Below the pieces are notes generated by a model, which saw only the letters and a list, made by a program, of their open reading frames with translations, was not told the DNA's origin and did no database searches. Shown one piece after another: positions 1,795 to 7,733 of a DNA stretch of 64,000 nt. Location of the stretch: contig NZ_JAPHEH010000001.1 of the NCBI RefSeq assembly GCF_029607905.1, positions 2,509,530 to 2,573,529 of the forward strand, given 5' to 3'. The DNA is from Thiovibrio frasassiensis. Its GTDB lineage: Bacteria; Desulfobacterota; Desulfobulbia; Desulfobulbales; Desulfurivibrionaceae. The first letter of the stretch is position 1. The number at the start of each line of letters is the position of its first letter. A program made the position numbers and the translations under genes.

Positions 1795-2061
1795 GATCAC
1801 CGCAATTTGGCGCTGTTCTTGTGGGAGATACACCAAGGACTTTGCGATATGACTACCCTTCCCGGACGATTTTGTCAAACAGGACGGGCCTCATTGTGTT
1901 GGTTGCACCCGTTATCGCCCTGCCGCATCCTCTTAATACCCCGTATTTTTTCGGGATTGCCTACAGGTTGGTATTCTGGTAACAAGATTTGTCAGGCATA
2001 GCAATTTAGACCGTGGCCGGAGCCGCTCGATGCGGCGATAGACAAATACAGAAAGAGAACA
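1795..2061. other. Intergenic region upstream of uvrC
   Basis: This stretch has no convincing gene. It should contain the uvrC promoter on minus, but I see no clear -35/-10 pair. On plus, one frame is open from 2002 into the toxin remnant that begins near 2098. The part before about 2090 does not resemble the toxin family, so it is probably unrelated DNA joined to the remnant. Confidence 0.5.
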
Positions 2062-2087
2062 AAAAATAGGGAGGCGTCCCTATTTTT
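2062..2087. repeat. Perfect 11-bp palindrome (AAAAATAGGGA / TCCCTATTTTT)
   Basis: Arms 2062-2072 and 2077-2087 pair perfectly around the 4-base loop GGCG. The arms carry A and T runs, so the element could act as a bidirectional terminator. Its core, GGGA-n-GTCCC, resembles short palindromes at 31911-31920 and 32620-32629 beside the second accessory island, so a dispersed repeat is equally plausible. Confidence 0.6.
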
Positions 2088-2097
2088 CTTCCTAGTT

Positions 2098-2241
2098 TTC
2101 TTCAGATTGGGGGATGGGGTCCACCACTGTCATCTGAAAAAGGGCCACCCTACTTATGTTGCGGTCTGGCAAGAAAAAGACGGCGAAATTCGACTCGTGG
2201 AGTTCATTTATGTTGGTACGCACGAAAAAGCACCATACTGA
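2098..2241 (+). pseudogene. C-terminal remnant of a RelE/HigB-like toxin
   Basis: The frame ending in TGA at 2239-2241 encodes about 46 residues that look like the C-terminal half of a small RelE/HigB-type toxin: RLGDGVHHCHLKKG, then PTYVAVWQ, and the ending YVGTHEKAPY. Family members are about 90 residues long. Here the N-terminal half is missing and upstream codons do not match it, so the toxin is almost certainly inactive. The tail overlaps the start of the downstream XRE antitoxin gene by 32 bases, which is the normal arrangement for this toxin-antitoxin type. The family assignment is from memory of its typical C-terminus, and the 5' boundary is approximate. Confidence 0.6.
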
Positions 2242-2554
2242 AAGCGTCCGCTTTGTCGGGCCACCGGCGGCAATCGAGCGCCTGCGCAAGCTGGCCCGTG
2301 AAACGGGTGTAGCGGAAGAAGCGGAAAGCATCCCCGCTTCCATGCTCAACCCGGAGCTTGATAGCAATCCTGGCGGGGTCTATCTCAAGGGTATTCGCCA
2401 CCGAAACAGCCTCAGCCAGGAGCAGCTTGCCAAACTGACGGGGATACCAAGGCGGCATATTTCCGAAATGGAGAACGGCAAGCGAACCATCGGCAAAGAA
2501 AACGCCAAGAAGATGGCCCGTGCCCTTGGCTGCGACTATCGCGCCTTTCTCTGA
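2210..2554 (+). CDS. XRE-family HTH antitoxin-like regulator
   Basis: This 114-residue protein has a Cro/C1-type helix-turn-helix near residues 60-105 (LSQEQLAKLTGIPRRHISEM, then GKRTIGKENAKKMARAL). It probably binds DNA as the antitoxin and autorepressor of a type II toxin-antitoxin pair. I place the start at the ATG at 2210. The frame is open back to 2156, but those upstream codons only overlap the toxin remnant in another frame and give a non-family-like N-terminus. The start inside the toxin's 3' end is typical for this module type. With the toxin destroyed, the antitoxin is an orphan that may persist as a regulator or as protection against related toxins. Confidence 0.75.
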   Translation: MLVRTKKHHTESVRFVGPPAAIERLRKLARETGVAEEAESIPASMLNPELDSNPGGVYLKGIRHRNSLSQEQLAKLTGIPRRHISEMENGKRTIGKENAKKMARALGCDYRAFL

Positions 2555-2585
2555 AATTTTCCCAATCTTTTCGGGAAATAAGTAT

Positions 2586-2660
2586 TATGTCCCCGGAATT
2601 ACACTATGTCCCCGGAATTCCGAAAAAAACGACTCAATAAATAGATATTATGTCCCCAGA
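2586..2660 (+). repeat. Three direct TATGTCCCC(G/A)GA repeats
   Basis: TATGTCCCCGGAATT occurs at 2586-2600 and again at 2605-2619, and a variant TATGTCCCCAGA lies at 2649-2660, just before the AT-rich gene at 2687. An inverted copy, AATTCTGGGGACA, lies beyond that gene at 3641-3653. The set brackets the gene like the ends of a small mobile or recombining unit. Confidence 0.65.
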
Positions 2661-2686
2661 AAACTATAAGCAGCTAAGGTTTGATC

Positions 2687-3622
2687 ATGGACGAATTAAA
2701 GAAAAGAATATTTTCAAGTGGTGCCTTTCGAAGCTTTTTAAAAGAAAGAGATGCATCTGTAATTTTTCGCAACTACGGATGGAAAGCGCAGCACGGAGTC
2801 TACTATCAGGACGTAGATTCTGGAAAACACCGAGAAATTGATGTCTTGGCCAGTCAGATTTGGACTAAAAAAACGAAATTTGGCACCCAATATGCACGAC
2901 TTAGGGTTCCAGTAGAGGTTAAAACGATGAAGGAGTATCACATCATCGTCTCTCCAACCACGGGGGAAGAATGGAGCTCTAGTTATCGAAACAATATATG
3001 TCTAGCGGAGTCGGGGAATGAGTATGTCAGGCTCAGAAAAGACCTTCAGGCGAGTGGGTTGCAGGAAGGGGCAGTGGATTCGCTCATTGCTGGCATGCAT
3101 GAATTCGCCTGGCCTAAAGATAGGGCTAGGCTACATTCTTTAATGCTAGCCCCACCAAAAGAGCTTGTTTTCACATCCTTTCGTGAAACGAACATTGGTG
3201 GAGAAAAGGAGCTAGAAAATTCGGTATTTTGGAGAGCAAGTCAAAACCTTAATTCTGCCGTAAAGAGTATTGCTGAGTCCATCTATCAGTACCACATTGG
3301 TTGGATTCTTGCTGGGAGGGAGAACGAGAAGTTCAAGGGGAATGACTACATTGATGAAACATTTGACTGGATGTGCTCACAAGTTCAATTTGTTGACATT
3401 ATTCATCCGGTTGTCGTTACCGATGCAAGTTTGTGGTCCATCGAAAAAAACGCGCCTACGGAAATCGGCTGGGCGCGTTTTGGGTTGCACGGATATAACG
3501 ATTGGCCTGAGTGGTGGTGCGACCTCGTTAACTCAAGCCATTTGGAATCTTATGTGGAGCTTTTGTCAAATCACTACACATCTGCTCTTAAAAAAACCAA
3601 GGCAAAGATAAATTCCAAGTAA
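2687..3622 (+). CDS. Hypothetical protein with PD-(D/E)XK nuclease-like N-terminus
   Basis: This 311-residue protein is one I do not recognise as a named family. Its N-terminal 90 residues look like a restriction-endonuclease fold: a Gly-Trp/Tyr-rich strand (NYGWKAQHGVYYQD), an acidic strand (KHREIDVLAS) and then an E-x-K strand (VPVEVKTM). This order fits the D...ExK active site of PD-(D/E)XK enzymes. The remaining ~200 residues have no motif I can name. The ATG at 2687 follows AAGG with seven bases between, which I prefer to the TTG at 2681. The gene is visibly more AT-rich than uvrC or the respiratory genes and lies between GTCCCC-type repeats, suggesting acquisition. A defence or DNA-processing role is an inference only. 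Confidence 0.6.
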   Translation: MDELKKRIFSSGAFRSFLKERDASVIFRNYGWKAQHGVYYQDVDSGKHREIDVLASQIWTKKTKFGTQYARLRVPVEVKTMKEYHIIVSPTTGEEWSSSYRNNICLAESGNEYVRLRKDLQASGLQEGAVDSLIAGMHEFAWPKDRARLHSLMLAPPKELVFTSFRETNIGGEKELENSVFWRASQNLNSAVKSIAESIYQYHIGWILAGRENEKFKGNDYIDETFDWMCSQVQFVDIIHPVVVTDASLWSIEKNAPTEIGWARFGLHGYNDWPEWWCDLVNSSHLESYVELLSNHYTSALKKTKAKINSK

Positions 3623-3640
3623 TAGAAAGAGCCGAACTAA

Positions 3641-3653
3641 AATTCTGGGGACA
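3641..3653 (-). repeat. Inverted copy of the TGTCCCC(A/G)GAATT repeat
   Basis: AATTCTGGGGACA is the reverse complement of TGTCCCCAGAATT, matching the elements at 2586-2660 in opposite orientation. It lies 19 bases after the stop codon of the nuclease-like gene. Confidence 0.6.
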
Positions 3654-3740
3654 CTTTACTTAATTATTGAGACGAGAAAACCCTCTTCGACAGGCGGAGC
3701 ACAACTAATCAATCCGTAATCAATCCGCAGTGAAACCAAT

Positions 3741-4142
3741 AGGGACGCTGGTAAGTTATGTAACTTAATACGTATAAAATAGGGACAGAGCCCAATTTTC
3801 ACAATAAAACGAGCAAGCCTGCCAGGCTGAATTTCCTCTGCCGCGTAAATGTAACGAATTGAAGATGAAAAAACAAAACAACACCACCAAAAGAAAGCTA
3901 AAAATTCTCATTGTCGACGATCTTGAATTCCCAAGGGGGACTACAGGGACGCTGGCAAGTTATGTAACTTAAATAACGTATGAAATAGGAAACGGAGCCT
4001 CATTTTCACAATGCAATGAGCAAACCTGCTAGGCTGAATTTCCTCTGCCGTGTAAACGTAACGAATTGAAGATGAAAAAACAAAACAGCACCAGCAAGAG
4101 AAAGCTGAAAATTCTCATTGTCGATGACCTCGAATTCCCAAG
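3741..4142 (+). repeat. Imperfect tandem duplication of a receiver gene's 5' end and leader
   Basis: Copy A (3741-3935) and copy B (3945-4142) align over about 195 bases: both start AGGGACGCTGG, both carry the dyad AAGTTATGTAACTT (3753-3766 and 3957-3970), both contain the block GCTGAATTTCCTCTGCCG, and both end in the first ~24 codons of a receiver domain up to CCCAAG. Within the coding part most differences are synonymous (for example GAC GAT CTT against GAT GAC CTC). Copy A stops matching at 3935, where it runs into GGGGACTAC and then copy B. Confidence 0.85.
3865..3972 (+). pseudogene. Truncated CheY-like receiver gene (35 codons left)
   Basis: The ATG at 3865 opens a frame that matches the N-terminus of the intact receiver at 4072, including KLKILIVDDLEFPR. 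After Arg24 it shifts to eleven unrelated residues and stops at 3970-3972. Only the first beta strand and the acidic Asp pair survive, so no receiver fold is possible. The synonymous pattern of differences from the intact gene suggests that this was once a complete paralogue. Confidence 0.8.
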
Positions 4143-4601: not shown

Positions 4602-5417
4602 TTATTCCTTCTCGTCGTCGCTCAAGCCTTTCACAATAACCGCCCCTGCCAGCCCAAGCATCCCGAGGCCCTTGACCTGATCCATGGCCGGTTTCAGCAT
4701 ATGGGCCATGATGGTCCGGCGCAGATTGGCCTGCGGCATGGCCTGCGGGGTGCAGGTGGTGGTCAGCAGATGCATGTCCTTTTTGTTGCCGTAATAACGG
4801 ACATTGGGACCGATCTTCACCTTGGCGCTTTCCAGTTTAGCCGCGCCTTTTTTCACATACTTGGCAACCTCGGAATTGGGATCGTTCAGATCGCCGAATA
4901 TCCGGGCCCGGGCCAGACAGGTCTGCACACAGGCAGGCTCAAGGCCTTCAGCCACACGCTCAACGCAGAAGGTGCATTTGTCGGCCTTGGGATCGCTCTC
5001 TTCCTCATTCACATAACGAGCGCTGTACGGGCAGGCATCGGCGCAGGCGCCGCAACCAAGGCAGCGCTCCTTGTCGATCTGGACCGTACCGTTGAAGGGG
5101 TCCTTCCAGGTTGCAGCAACCTCCATCTTCTTGGTCTTGCCGCTCTTCGCATCGGTAAAGGTAACCTCTACCTTATCCGCCGGACAAACGTCGACGCACG
5201 CCGGCTTGTCGCAGTGGTTGCACAGGCCGGGATAATAGGTGGAAGCCAGGCCCTTGGGGGTCTTGGTCGGGCCAAGACGTGTTACCCAGTTTCTTCTCCG
5301 CTCTCTCTCGGCCGAATCCTTGCCGGTGGGAACCTCCCACTCTGCCCGGCAAGCAATGGCACAGGCGTGGCAACCCACACATTTCTCAAGATCTATAATC
5401 ATTCCGTATTGACTCAC
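4602..5417 (-). CDS. Molybdoenzyme iron-sulfur subunit (four 4Fe-4S, PsrB/PhsB-like)
   Basis: This 271-residue protein is an electron-transfer subunit of the complex iron-sulfur molybdoenzyme family. Four cysteine groups are complete: Cys13/16/19/23, Cys66/69/74/78, Cys119/122/125/129 and Cys148/151/163/167, each predicted to hold a 4Fe-4S cluster. It has no signal peptide, as expected for a partner carried across the membrane with the Tat-exported catalytic subunit. The C-terminus has a short hydrophobic stretch (GLGMLGLAGAVIV) that may help it dock to the membrane. It lies 63 bases downstream of the catalytic subunit in one operon. No NrfD/PsrC-type membrane anchor gene is adjacent, so its electron donor or acceptor is unknown. 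Confidence 0.92.
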   Translation of the reverse strand: MSQYGMIIDLEKCVGCHACAIACRAEWEVPTGKDSAERERRRNWVTRLGPTKTPKGLASTYYPGLCNHCDKPACVDVCPADKVEVTFTDAKSGKTKKMEVAATWKDPFNGTVQIDKERCLGCGACADACPYSARYVNEEESDPKADKCTFCVERVAEGLEPACVQTCLARARIFGDLNDPNSEVAKYVKKGAAKLESAKVKIGPNVRYYGNKKDMHLLTTTCTPQAMPQANLRRTIMAHMLKPAMDQVKGLGMLGLAGAVIVKGLSDDEKE

Positions 5418-5480
5418 GGCAATTCCTCCAAAACAAAATAGTTAATTTCTCTGGGGCATCATCAATTAGCTAACTGCCGC

Positions 5481-7733
5481 TTACGCGGGAATGCTCAGCA
5501 CCTTGCCATTTTTGATGAACTTGACGAAGTTGTTCCGCATGCCATGCGCGCCGGTTTCAGGATCAACCGCAACCTTGGTGATCAAGCTCTGGTCGTCGAT
5601 GCCTGCGCCAACGCCAACGGTCATGGCCTTGTTCATCGTGCCGTAACCATGGGCGGTGTACACGGTATCCTTACGGATGCCCGGGGTCACCTTAACCACG
5701 GAAGAGGTCCTGGACTTCACGCCGTCCTGGTTCACCAGCTCGATGGTGTCGCCGTCTTTCAGACCCATCTTCTTGGCGCACTCGTCGTTGAGCCATACCG
5801 GATTGATCGGCATCTCATTGTGCAGCCAGGTATTGTTCTGCGTCCGGTTGAAAGTGTGCATCGGAGCGCGACCGTATACCAAACGGGCAAAGCCCTTGGG
5901 CGGCTCGGGAACCGGGACATAGGTGGGAATGGCCGGATAACCTGCTTCCGCCAGCTCCGCACTATGAAATTCCACATCCAGGGCCTTACCATAGGGATCC
6001 ACACCGGGCTGAAGATGGATACCATCCTCCTTGACCAGCTGTTCGATGGTCAGGTTGGCATCTTTCAACATGGTGTTGATCATATCCTCGGCAGACTTAA
6101 CCTTGATATGCTCACCGTAGCCCATGCGCTTCGCCAGCTCGTTCATGATCCAGACAGATTCCTTACGCTCATGGTCGGCAGCGGTGGGAGAAACCAGCGG
6201 CATCCGCGCGGAAATAAACTGCTGATGCGGATCGGCAAAGTTCCACTGGGTACCCTTCTGGATATGATCGTAACGTTCCAGATAGGAGGATTCAGGCAGC
6301 AGGATGTCTGCGTACATGGTGATATCGGTGGGCATGACATCACAAACCATAACAAAATCCATCTGCTCCAGCATCTTGATGGTCAGCGCCTGATCAGGCA
6401 CGGTCTGGATGGGATTCTGGCCCCAGGCAACAAAACCCTTGATCGCGTAAGGCTTGCCGGTCACGGCAGCATTACGGATCAGGTCGGTGGGGGTGCCCGG
6501 AGGAGAAAACTTGTAAACCTTTGCCATCTTGTGGAGGGCAAATTTCTCGGCATGCTCAGCCATGGGTTTCGGCCAGCCGGCCTTCCCGGTCTTGGGGCCT
6601 TTGCCTGCAACAAAGCCACCCTTGACGCCGATGGCACCCAAAAGACCGGTCAAACAAGCCAGGGCCCGCTCGCGCTGGAAGTCGTTACCGTGCCAGCTCA
6701 CGTGACGGCCTGGATGGATGGAAACATTGGGAGCATTGGCGGCCAGCATATCGGCAACCTGCTTGATCTGCTTCTCTGGCACGTCGCAGGTCTTTGCCGC
6801 CCATTTGAGGGTGGCATGGGCAATGCCCTTGGAAAACTCATCAAAGCCCTTGCCGTGTTCGGCAACATATTTCTTGTCGTATTTGCCTTCCTTGATCAAG
6901 TAGTTCATGATCGCCAGCAGGAAAGCAGTATCGGTGCCGGGCTTGATCTTGACCCAGATGTCTGCCTTGGAAACAGAGGCAGAGAACCGGGGGTCAACAA
7001 CGATCAGTTTGGCGCCGTTCTCAAGGCCCTTCAAATAGCGCTTCAGATGGGAGACATGGACGTTCTCACCAAAATGGCCACCGAGAAGGAAGATCGCCTT
7101 GGCATTGGCCATATCGACATTCTCACCGGGAGCAACACCCAAGGTAGCAACGTAAGCGGTGTCGCGGATACCGCGGCACTGGAAGAATGAAGCCTCGGAA
7201 TTGTTCGGGGTGCCGACTACATTTTCGAAAAAGGTCATCGGGTATTTTGCGGAAGAACCGTGGGGAAAAATGGCAATACCCTGGGGGCCGTGCTTGTCGA
7301 CAACCGCTTTGAGCTTGGTGGCGCACTCGTCAAGAGCCTCGGTCCAGGAAATCCGCTTCCATTCAGGGGCGCCACGCTTGCCGACGTTCTTCATGGGGAA
7401 TTTCAAACGATCCGGATCGTAGAGCAGCTTGACACCGGCGTTGCCACGGGCACAGATACTCTGACCGTTGTCGATGCTCTTGGGGTTGCCTTCAAGCTTC
7501 ACCAGCTTGCCGTCCCGCACCTTGCCCACCAGCTGACAACGCCAGAAGCACATTTCGCAGACACCACCCACCGCAGTCTTGGTGCCGGCAAAGCTGCCGG
7601 GCGCGGTGAAGGGTTTCTTGACAAACGGCGTACTCGCGTTTGCCTGCCTGGCAAAACAGCCGGACATTGCTGCCGAGGCTGCCGCAAGGGATGCGGTCTG
7701 CAGAAATTTACGTCTCGTCAGATTCAAAGCCAT
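5481..7733 (-). CDS. Molybdopterin oxidoreductase catalytic subunit (PsrA/PhsA-like)
   Basis: This 750-residue enzyme of the DMSO-reductase superfamily is probably a periplasmic respiratory reductase or oxidase. A twin-arginine signal (RRKFLQ, residues 7-12) leads, with either an Ala-X-Ala cut near residue 33 or a lipobox-like MSGC at residues 23-26. Cys59, Cys62, Cys66 and Cys94 form the classical 4Fe-4S site next to the molybdopterin. Cys186 (FFQCRG) is the likely molybdenum ligand. Later regions (GQNP, CDVMPTDIT, ADILLPESSYLE, then a C-terminal dinucleotide-binding domain) fit the family. The closest relatives I recognise are polysulfide/thiosulfate reductases, but the substrate cannot be read from the sequence, and tetrathionate, arsenic oxyanions or others remain possible. 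Confidence 0.92.
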   Translation of the reverse strand: MALNLTRRKFLQTASLAAASAAMSGCFARQANASTPFVKKPFTAPGSFAGTKTAVGGVCEMCFWRCQLVGKVRDGKLVKLEGNPKSIDNGQSICARGNAGVKLLYDPDRLKFPMKNVGKRGAPEWKRISWTEALDECATKLKAVVDKHGPQGIAIFPHGSSAKYPMTFFENVVGTPNNSEASFFQCRGIRDTAYVATLGVAPGENVDMANAKAIFLLGGHFGENVHVSHLKRYLKGLENGAKLIVVDPRFSASVSKADIWVKIKPGTDTAFLLAIMNYLIKEGKYDKKYVAEHGKGFDEFSKGIAHATLKWAAKTCDVPEKQIKQVADMLAANAPNVSIHPGRHVSWHGNDFQRERALACLTGLLGAIGVKGGFVAGKGPKTGKAGWPKPMAEHAEKFALHKMAKVYKFSPPGTPTDLIRNAAVTGKPYAIKGFVAWGQNPIQTVPDQALTIKMLEQMDFVMVCDVMPTDITMYADILLPESSYLERYDHIQKGTQWNFADPHQQFISARMPLVSPTAADHERKESVWIMNELAKRMGYGEHIKVKSAEDMINTMLKDANLTIEQLVKEDGIHLQPGVDPYGKALDVEFHSAELAEAGYPAIPTYVPVPEPPKGFARLVYGRAPMHTFNRTQNNTWLHNEMPINPVWLNDECAKKMGLKDGDTIELVNQDGVKSRTSSVVKVTPGIRKDTVYTAHGYGTMNKAMTVGVGAGIDDQSLITKVAVDPETGAHGMRNNFVKFIKNGKVLSIPA

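Follow-up and report, generated by a model that had tools for sequence, protein, structure and literature searches.

The position of a gene between copies of a short repeat raises the question of whether the gene and the repeats form one moving unit, or whether the repeats mark a site beside which different genes are exchanged. Such a locus is found in the window, i.e., the whole stretch of 64,000 nucleotides of Thiovibrio frasassiensis DNA analyzed here. The earlier note on this DNA read the locus as a mobile unit within inverted repeats. The repeats do flank the gene; however, they are RAYT-type REPs which are scattered, flank many other genes, and stay in place while the adjoining cargo changes, and therefore the REP is regarded here as a docking edge and not as a private terminal repeat. 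The explanation toward which we lean, by a little more than an even balance, is that the gene encodes a PD-(D/E)XK nuclease of an undescribed family, probably anti-phage, which is cargo at REP docking edges and subject to RAYT-driven exchange.

Structure of the Repeat-Edged Locus

The putative stand-alone nuclease gene of the PD-(D/E)XK type (2687..3622, + strand) encodes 311 aa, with an alternative TTG start possible 6 bases upstream of 2687. The gene is AT-rich, as had been noticed before, with a GC content of 0.437 vs 0.557 for the whole window. The consensus of the repeat around the gene is AATTAAGTANNRTGTCCCCGGAATT. The left REP, AAATAAGTATTATGTCCCCGGAATT (2576..2600, +), has 1 mismatch to the 25-mer consensus and directs its GGAATT end toward the gene. 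A partial copy of 15 bases, TATGTCCCCGGAATT, follows 19 bp from the first copy (2605..2619, +), and a degenerate copy with 6 mismatches to the 25-mer is located just 5′ of the nuclease gene (2639..2663, +). The right REP is inverted (3641..3665, AATTAAGTAAAGTGTCCCCAGAATT on the − strand), has 1 mismatch, and turns its GAATT end toward the gene. The arrangement originally described, three direct copies before the gene and one inverted copy after it, is present as placed: the 12-mer TATGTCCCC(G/A)GA starts at 2586, 2605, and 2649 on the + strand, and its inverted copy at 3644–3655 carries 2 mismatches. No Rfam family matches positions 1800–4100 of the window at the gathering score.

Outside the left REP lies an HTH gene (2156..2554, +), which is XRE/HipB-like and resembles a control protein. 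The HTH gene is present in the relative G012 (95% identical DNA), where the nuclease unit is absent. The alignment of G012 to the left flank of the window ends at 2588, inside the left REP, and a different gene comes next. In G024, uvrC and the response regulator are separated by a short spacer.

Two further features lie close to the unit. Directly before the HTH gene, at 2101–2241, lies a 3′ remnant of a gene which, on reading, we take to be a RelE/HigB-like toxin gene; the relative L165 has a longer form, and the remnant breaks off near the palindrome AAAATAGGGAGGCGTCCCTATTTT (2063–2086). A 151-nt direct repeat (3785–3935 and 3992–4142, 89% alike) represents a duplicated start of the response-regulator gene. 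Each of its copies is preceded by AGGGACGCTGG(T/C)AAGTTATGTAACTTAA (3741–3768 and 3945–3972), perhaps another REP-like family.

The Putative Nuclease and Its Distant Relatives

Searches of Pfam, PADLOC, NCBIfam, PHROGs, and the PDB sequences gave no significant match to the 311-aa protein. Its best library score overall is to AbiK of PADLOC (E 0.018), and none of the known anti-phage families in the PADLOC-DB 2.0.0 profiles is matched. Searches with the sequence alone gave no relative among 26 other genomes of the family and 394 other genomes of the phylum, nor in plasmids, phages, genome contigs, and viral contigs, collections which may omit records very close to the genome of origin. A second copy of the protein was likewise absent from its own genome and from the same 26 and 394 genomes.

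Relatives were detected by motif and profile. The motif pattern occurs at 10 loci of the viral contigs, two of which hold true relatives (L041, L046), and a three-sequence profile led to relatives in three more genomes of the same phylum. The related-locus search returned six loci among the genome contigs, of which L213 has a protein identical to that of L046 and L211 is interrupted in its frame; among the viral contigs, it returned only the two relatives already found. There are ten distinct distant relatives; nine have an open frame and were aligned, and these nine are 16–22% identical. Three of them come from the same phylum and one (L041) from a viral contig, while another (L046/L213) occurs both in a viral contig and in Paenibacillus. 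The remaining ones are from Janthinobacterium and from MAGs of Proteobacteria, Betaproteobacteria, and Bacteroidetes; the tenth, from an Acidobacteria MAG, has the interrupted frame. By sequence, the window protein is of a family undescribed in the libraries searched, though distant relatives exist, and the suggestion of an undescribed protein is narrowed to that extent.

Conservation was assessed in an alignment of ten sequences, the window protein and the nine open-frame relatives. Residues G12, D42, R49, D52, A55, and K79 are invariant, and E50, I51, and E77 are conserved in at least 90%; E77 is present in nine of the ten sequences, and L206 has S instead. E20 is also invariant in a set of seven sequences. 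The D of REIDV and the E-x-K of VEVKT, which had been proposed as catalytic residues, were thus correctly placed (D52; E77 and K79) and are conserved in distant relatives. Together, D52 ... E77-x-K79 reads as the active-site signature of a PD-(D/E)XK nuclease.

Structure prediction had been proposed as a check, with the geometry of these residues in mind. The single-sequence prediction is useless (pLDDT 32.7). The model built from seven sequences places D52, E77, and K79 on predicted strands (48–63 and 66–79); it is weak overall, with a mean pLDDT of 49.4 and a pTM of 0.52, while the ten-residue blocks within 11–40 and 51–80 reach pLDDT 66–91 and the block 41–50 reaches 56. The top VIA-align rows are AF1548 (Z 9.1), Cdn1 (8.9), and VC1899 (8.8), followed by Can2 (8.6), a McrBC chain (8.6), and Hjc (8.1); SduA (Z 6.2) and NucC (Z 5.9) are also listed. 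Values of Z 7–8 are usual without a true match, and the leading Z of 8.1–9.1 are little above that. Non-nucleases occur among the rows too, e.g., chimallin (Z 5.6–6.7), and the absence of a structural family from the rows does not mean its exclusion. Foldseek with this weak model gave nothing at E ≤ 0.001, and a PDB profile search gave chance matches only (E 0.31 and 0.36). The nuclease reading of the earlier note is supported by the motif conservation in the ten sequences together with structural matches led by PD-(D/E)XK proteins of a weak model, and a PD-(D/E)XK nuclease fold of the window protein is likely.

The catalytic motif is the one of Shedu SduA, Mrr, Card1/Can2/Cdn1, and NucC, and the VIA-align list includes Cdn1, Can2, SduA, and NucC. 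Unlike these stand-alone defense nucleases, the window protein has no detected sequence relation to them and no recognized sensor domain.

Some of the relatives lie in settings of their own. In L207 (281–2433), the relative is beside an ORF read as SIR2-like, and in L211 (249–2602), the relative with the interrupted frame is beside an ORF read as N6-methyltransferase-like. An IMG/VR viral contig (L046:7027–7845) and a Paenibacillus contig (L213:5995–6813) code for one and the same 272-aa relative, which suggests a prophage-borne copy or a viral contig cut from such a genome.

The Repeat as a RAYT-Type REP

Within the window, a loose form of the 12-mer (up to 2 mismatches) occurs 11 times vs 8.6 expected, a number reached by 23 of 100 shuffles and so no higher than chance. 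The longer 17-mer separates clearly from its reversed-pattern controls: in its own genome, 20 matches vs 3 were found with up to 3 mismatches, and in the 17 genomes of the genus, 62 matches vs 1 with up to 2 mismatches, summed over genomes. The repeat is present in 12 of these 17 genomes and in 42 of 395 genomes of the phylum (29 of 246 genera); among the matches listed, none is to the control. A genome search for the repeat had been suggested earlier, with scattered copies unrelated to the gene as evidence against the unit; the copies are indeed scattered, and the link to the gene persists. A plasmid search with 33 bases spanning the L031 copy gave no match at E up to 1e-3, and the viral contigs contain no exact match to the repeat.

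The nature of the repeat is indicated by its neighbors. In three relatives of the genus (L126, L127, L138), it encloses the gene of a 234-aa Y1 transposase (RAYT), and GTCCCC points away from the RAYT gene; the left copy of L127 is damaged. Five more RAYT ORFs beside the repeat, recognized by sequence reading and not by profile, are present in three genomes of other genera. The repeat forms inverted pairs around the RAYT in L256, L275, L278, and L284, where the near copy of L284 has 4 mismatches, and stands on one side only in L276, where the RAYT ORF is a 120-aa piece. The RAYT gene is located on the AATTAAG side of the repeat in all eight adjoining cases. Exceptions to this polarity are RAYT ORFs on the GGAATT side at 0.4 kb (L254) and at more than 2 kb (L264), and, in L252 (2601–3047), an ORF read as an IS200-type transposase, which also lies on the GGAATT side, 136 bp from the REP. 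The genome of origin, 95.5% complete, has a single Y1_Tnp match, flanked by a related but different repeat, AAAGGGGACGTTGTTTAATTG, and this search found in it no RAYT with the exact REP of the window.

The REP doublets of L033 and L034 fold into predicted hairpins of −32.2 and −25.2 kcal/mol (RNA parameters). Since RAYT genes adjoin the repeat and the doublets form hairpins, the repeat is assigned from its sequence and context to the RAYT-type (Y1) REPs. A GTAG or CGTC tag at one REP end reportedly marks the tagged REP/RAYT super-families. The window copies carry TGTC, without GTAG and without CGTC, and CGTC was found in the L009 flank and in the variants L145, L249, L252, and L256. Thus, kinship with RAYT repeats is claimed here, and not membership in a tagged super-family. 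That the REP acts as a promoter (TTGACA/TATTAT) was considered and rejected: the spacing is wrong, the cargo genes lie in both orientations, and the scan is at chance level.

Breakpoints and Polarity of the REP

Loci common to several species make it possible to see which part of the sequence is kept. Across the loci of the genus, every REP site without a RAYT was aligned with every other, and 50 site pairs have an alignment crossing the REP. Seven extend outward only, one inward only, none in both directions, and 42 in neither. The seven outward pairs have at least 60 bp of outer flank in common and end 0–9 bp past the 25-mer, at its GGAATT end; two of them are weak (72–74% identity over about 100 columns). 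The strong pairs are L036/L137 (585 bp of outer flank), L132/L153 (613 bp), and the three pairs formed by L130, L131, and L152 (about 700 bp). A fourth shared locus, L121/L146, was kept out of the seven by a gap in the outer flank. The single inward-only pair is L120/L152 (77% identity). At the four shared loci, the REP and its outer flank are kept, and the genes past the REP differ between species. An example of a variable slot is L034:5178–6063, between what are presumably a protein kinase gene and rlmL, where other genomes of the genus hold different genes and G014 has a short spacer only. A combination of the REP with a TTGACAGG-like outer neighbor is common to unrelated loci.

The two sides of the REP also differ in composition. 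Across the genus, the GC content of 1 kb is 0.483 on the GGAATT side vs 0.537 outside, and 28 of 40 sites have the lower value on the GGAATT side (p 3.5e-4, RAYT sites included). Without the RAYT sites, the GC step is 0.067 over 34 sites, a value reached by 0 of 2000 random placements within the same loci. REP copies with less than 600 bp on a side or with another REP within 120 bp were left out of the GC count. The nearest long ORF has a GC3 below 0.5 at 20 of 40 sites on the GGAATT side and at 5 of 41 outside, by an automatic choice that misses some cargo (DUF2971 in L034) and counts REPIN neighbors on both sides; ten REP copies (RAYT flanks, near duplicates) were left out. By reading, the GGAATT side has no evident cargo at L039, L135, L136, L146, and L154. 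In other genera, the GC difference falls short of significance (25 of 45 sites, p 0.19), and several REPs abut ordinary genes.

At its far end, the cargo is bounded by an inverted REP in the window, L034, L120, and L152, and, by eye, by another RAYT-like repeat in L031 and L036. Inward-facing REPs stand on both sides of the cargo in the window, L034, L120, L124 (right copy degenerate), and L152, and most REP sites have one recognizable REP only.

Cargo Genes and Defense Families

In the genome of origin, five of the seven REP loci scanned have PADLOC matches, the window gene and L037 being without. The cargo includes SIR2 (L031, E 2.6e-8), metallophosphoesterase-STAND (MPE-STAND, L032), PDC-S06 (L033, 1084 bits, E 0), DUF2971/PDC-S31 (L034, bracketed like the window unit), and MauJ/DzbB (L036, PADLOC E 4.9e-7). 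At L035, the REP is beside what we take, on reading, to be a region like those of type I RM, and the neighbors of L039 all look ordinary. In the relatives, PADLOC matches occur at 7 of 17 chosen loci (20 proteins), and the cargo comprises Mrr (L120), a retron of type IX (L124), HsdM (L128), LmuB (L130), PDC-S11 (L132, L150), and HsdR (L153).

An unselected PADLOC scan matched 106 families in 47 cargo-side proteins vs 44 families in 56 outer-side proteins; it left out 17 ORFs flanking REPs on both sides, among them the PDC-S06 of L033. The 25 of the 44 outer-side families that are listed are mainly helicase models (ZorD, DpdE, DrmD) and include SoFic, PD-Lambda-2_B, and PDC-S04. PADLOC is therefore noisy in this use, because the outer-side control matches defense families as well. 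In other genera, where the cargo side alone was scanned, 63 proteins include AbiU, Cas6, and REase_II matches; RAYT ORFs and 21 ORFs flanking REPs on both sides were left out.

The association with slots of known defense families suggests that the window nuclease is probably anti-phage. The possibly defensive role named in the earlier note is carried by this association only, and the protein itself has no PADLOC match. A nuclease without a defense role, which we consider somewhat unlikely, would fit the missing match and the occurrence of relatives in scattered taxa and mixed neighborhoods. However, the gene is AT-rich and absent from the 26 other genomes of the family, its kind of slot is common to known defense families, and one relative (L207) adjoins the SIR2-like ORF named by reading.

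Two observations extend to other genera. Similar AT-rich cargo-side ORFs, beginning MGPI(A/T)(I/L)FDKSFLQSL..., are present in two genera (L147:3395–4645 and L268:3644–4903). In L280 (5054–9887), from another genus, the REP is followed by ORFs which were named by reading as AbiE-type-like and McrBC-type-like.

Proposed Exchange at REP Edges

To our knowledge, the way in which single-gene defense systems without integrases change places is poorly understood. In the proposed exchange, the REP and its outer flank would be fixed at the locus, and the DNA past the GGAATT end would be swapped, often for AT-rich defense-type genes. The RAYT, a Y1/HUH single-strand nuclease, would be supplied in trans and would cut single-stranded DNA beside the REP (GTCCCCGGAATT) at the GGAATT end. 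An incoming REP-bearing strand would be joined at the cut and replace the DNA past this end, and either an inverted REP, as seen in the window, or a different RAYT-like repeat would close the cargo at its far end. The action of the RAYT as recombinase, the nuclease catalysis, and the defense function of the window gene are what we infer. In E. coli, TnpAREP reportedly cleaves single-stranded DNA 5′ or 3′ of the REP and joins strands (PMC8266576).

Alternatively, the REPs may be ordinary scattered RAYT repeats in dispensable extragenic DNA, where acquired genes also land, and the REP would take no part in their movement. This account is doubtful, and it draws on the spread of REPs through 42 of 395 genomes of the phylum, often beside ordinary genes and there without significant GC asymmetry, on the genome of origin having no RAYT of the exact window REP, and on the description of RAYT-associated REPs as extragenic repeats (PMC3116915). 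It is opposed by the homology that stops 0–9 bp past the same REP end in seven pairs, none spanning both sides, and by the location of genus cargo and RAYT on opposite sides of the REP.

A composite transposon, with REP, gene, and REP moving as one MIC-like unit and the REPs as its terminal inverted repeats, is a quite improbable alternative. The inward-facing REPs that bracket the cargo in the window, L034, L120, L124, and L152 have the form expected of such a unit, but most sites have a single recognizable REP, and the REP persists at shared loci while the cargo changes. The window protein is moreover single-copy across its own genome and the 26 family and 394 phylum genomes searched, and with no second copy found, nothing shows movement of the unit.

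The cargo could also be swapped by homologous or illegitimate recombination at DNA uptake, the 25–33 bp REP being a short homology anchor only. The REP with its TTGACAGG-like neighbor, common to unrelated loci, does offer short homology; against this, which we give a low probability, stand the length of 25–33 bp, which is short for RecA-type exchange, and the boundary, which falls at the same repeat end in seven pairs and not anywhere inside. Finally, tRNA-linked integration does not explain most sites, as a tRNA is present in 5 of 24 loci scanned besides the window.

Exchange at docking edges thus has both likenesses to and differences from known systems. REP/RAYT systems (REPtron, REPIN) share with it the inverted repeat pairs around a Y1 transposase gene, the hairpin doublets, and the scattered copies. 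The copies described here differ in that they edge foreign, often defense-type genes, which lie opposite the RAYT, and the window copies differ from tagged REP/RAYT repeats in having neither GTAG nor CGTC. Mobile insertion cassettes carry passenger genes between IS-type ends, and the likeness to them is a passenger gene between transposon-type repeats without a transposase of its own; unlike in them, the repeat is kept when the passenger is replaced, and at many sites a single repeat is present. In integron gene cassettes, cargo genes are exchanged beside a fixed site. The REP loci resemble this arrangement in the fixed site and the exchangeable cargo beside it; in contrast to integrons, the orientation of the REP cargo is mixed and no cassette arrays were seen. 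The literature searched, which lacks most subscription journals and all bioRxiv preprints, contains no account of REP-edged defense cargo.

A bolder form of docking-edge exchange is that RAYT repeats act as an integron-like immunity platform, in which the RAYT would cut the fixed REP at GGAATT and swap in anti-phage genes, the undescribed nuclease included. We put it forward tentatively and think it rather unlikely; if true, such a platform would be the host benefit of domesticated RAYT/REP pairs. Should immune genes indeed be exchanged at REP edges, the edge could serve as bait for new defense genes, including the family of the window nuclease, and both the role of REP/RAYT and the movement of defense genes would become testable. 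The spread of REPs and the use of RAYT transposases by the host are described as still poorly understood in two reports (PMC8266576, PMC3116915), and the second contains the speculation of Bertels and Rainey that REPINs taking up beneficial DNA would gain an advantage.

RAYT is also named among the genes adjoining reverse transcriptases in a further report (PMC8934634). In L124 of the relative G009 (5015–7579), a retron type IX module is located inside inward-facing REPs, the right one degenerate. The module consists of RT_IX (318 aa), HTH_IX (249 aa), and a 166-aa ORF, perhaps the one behind the HEPN_IX match.
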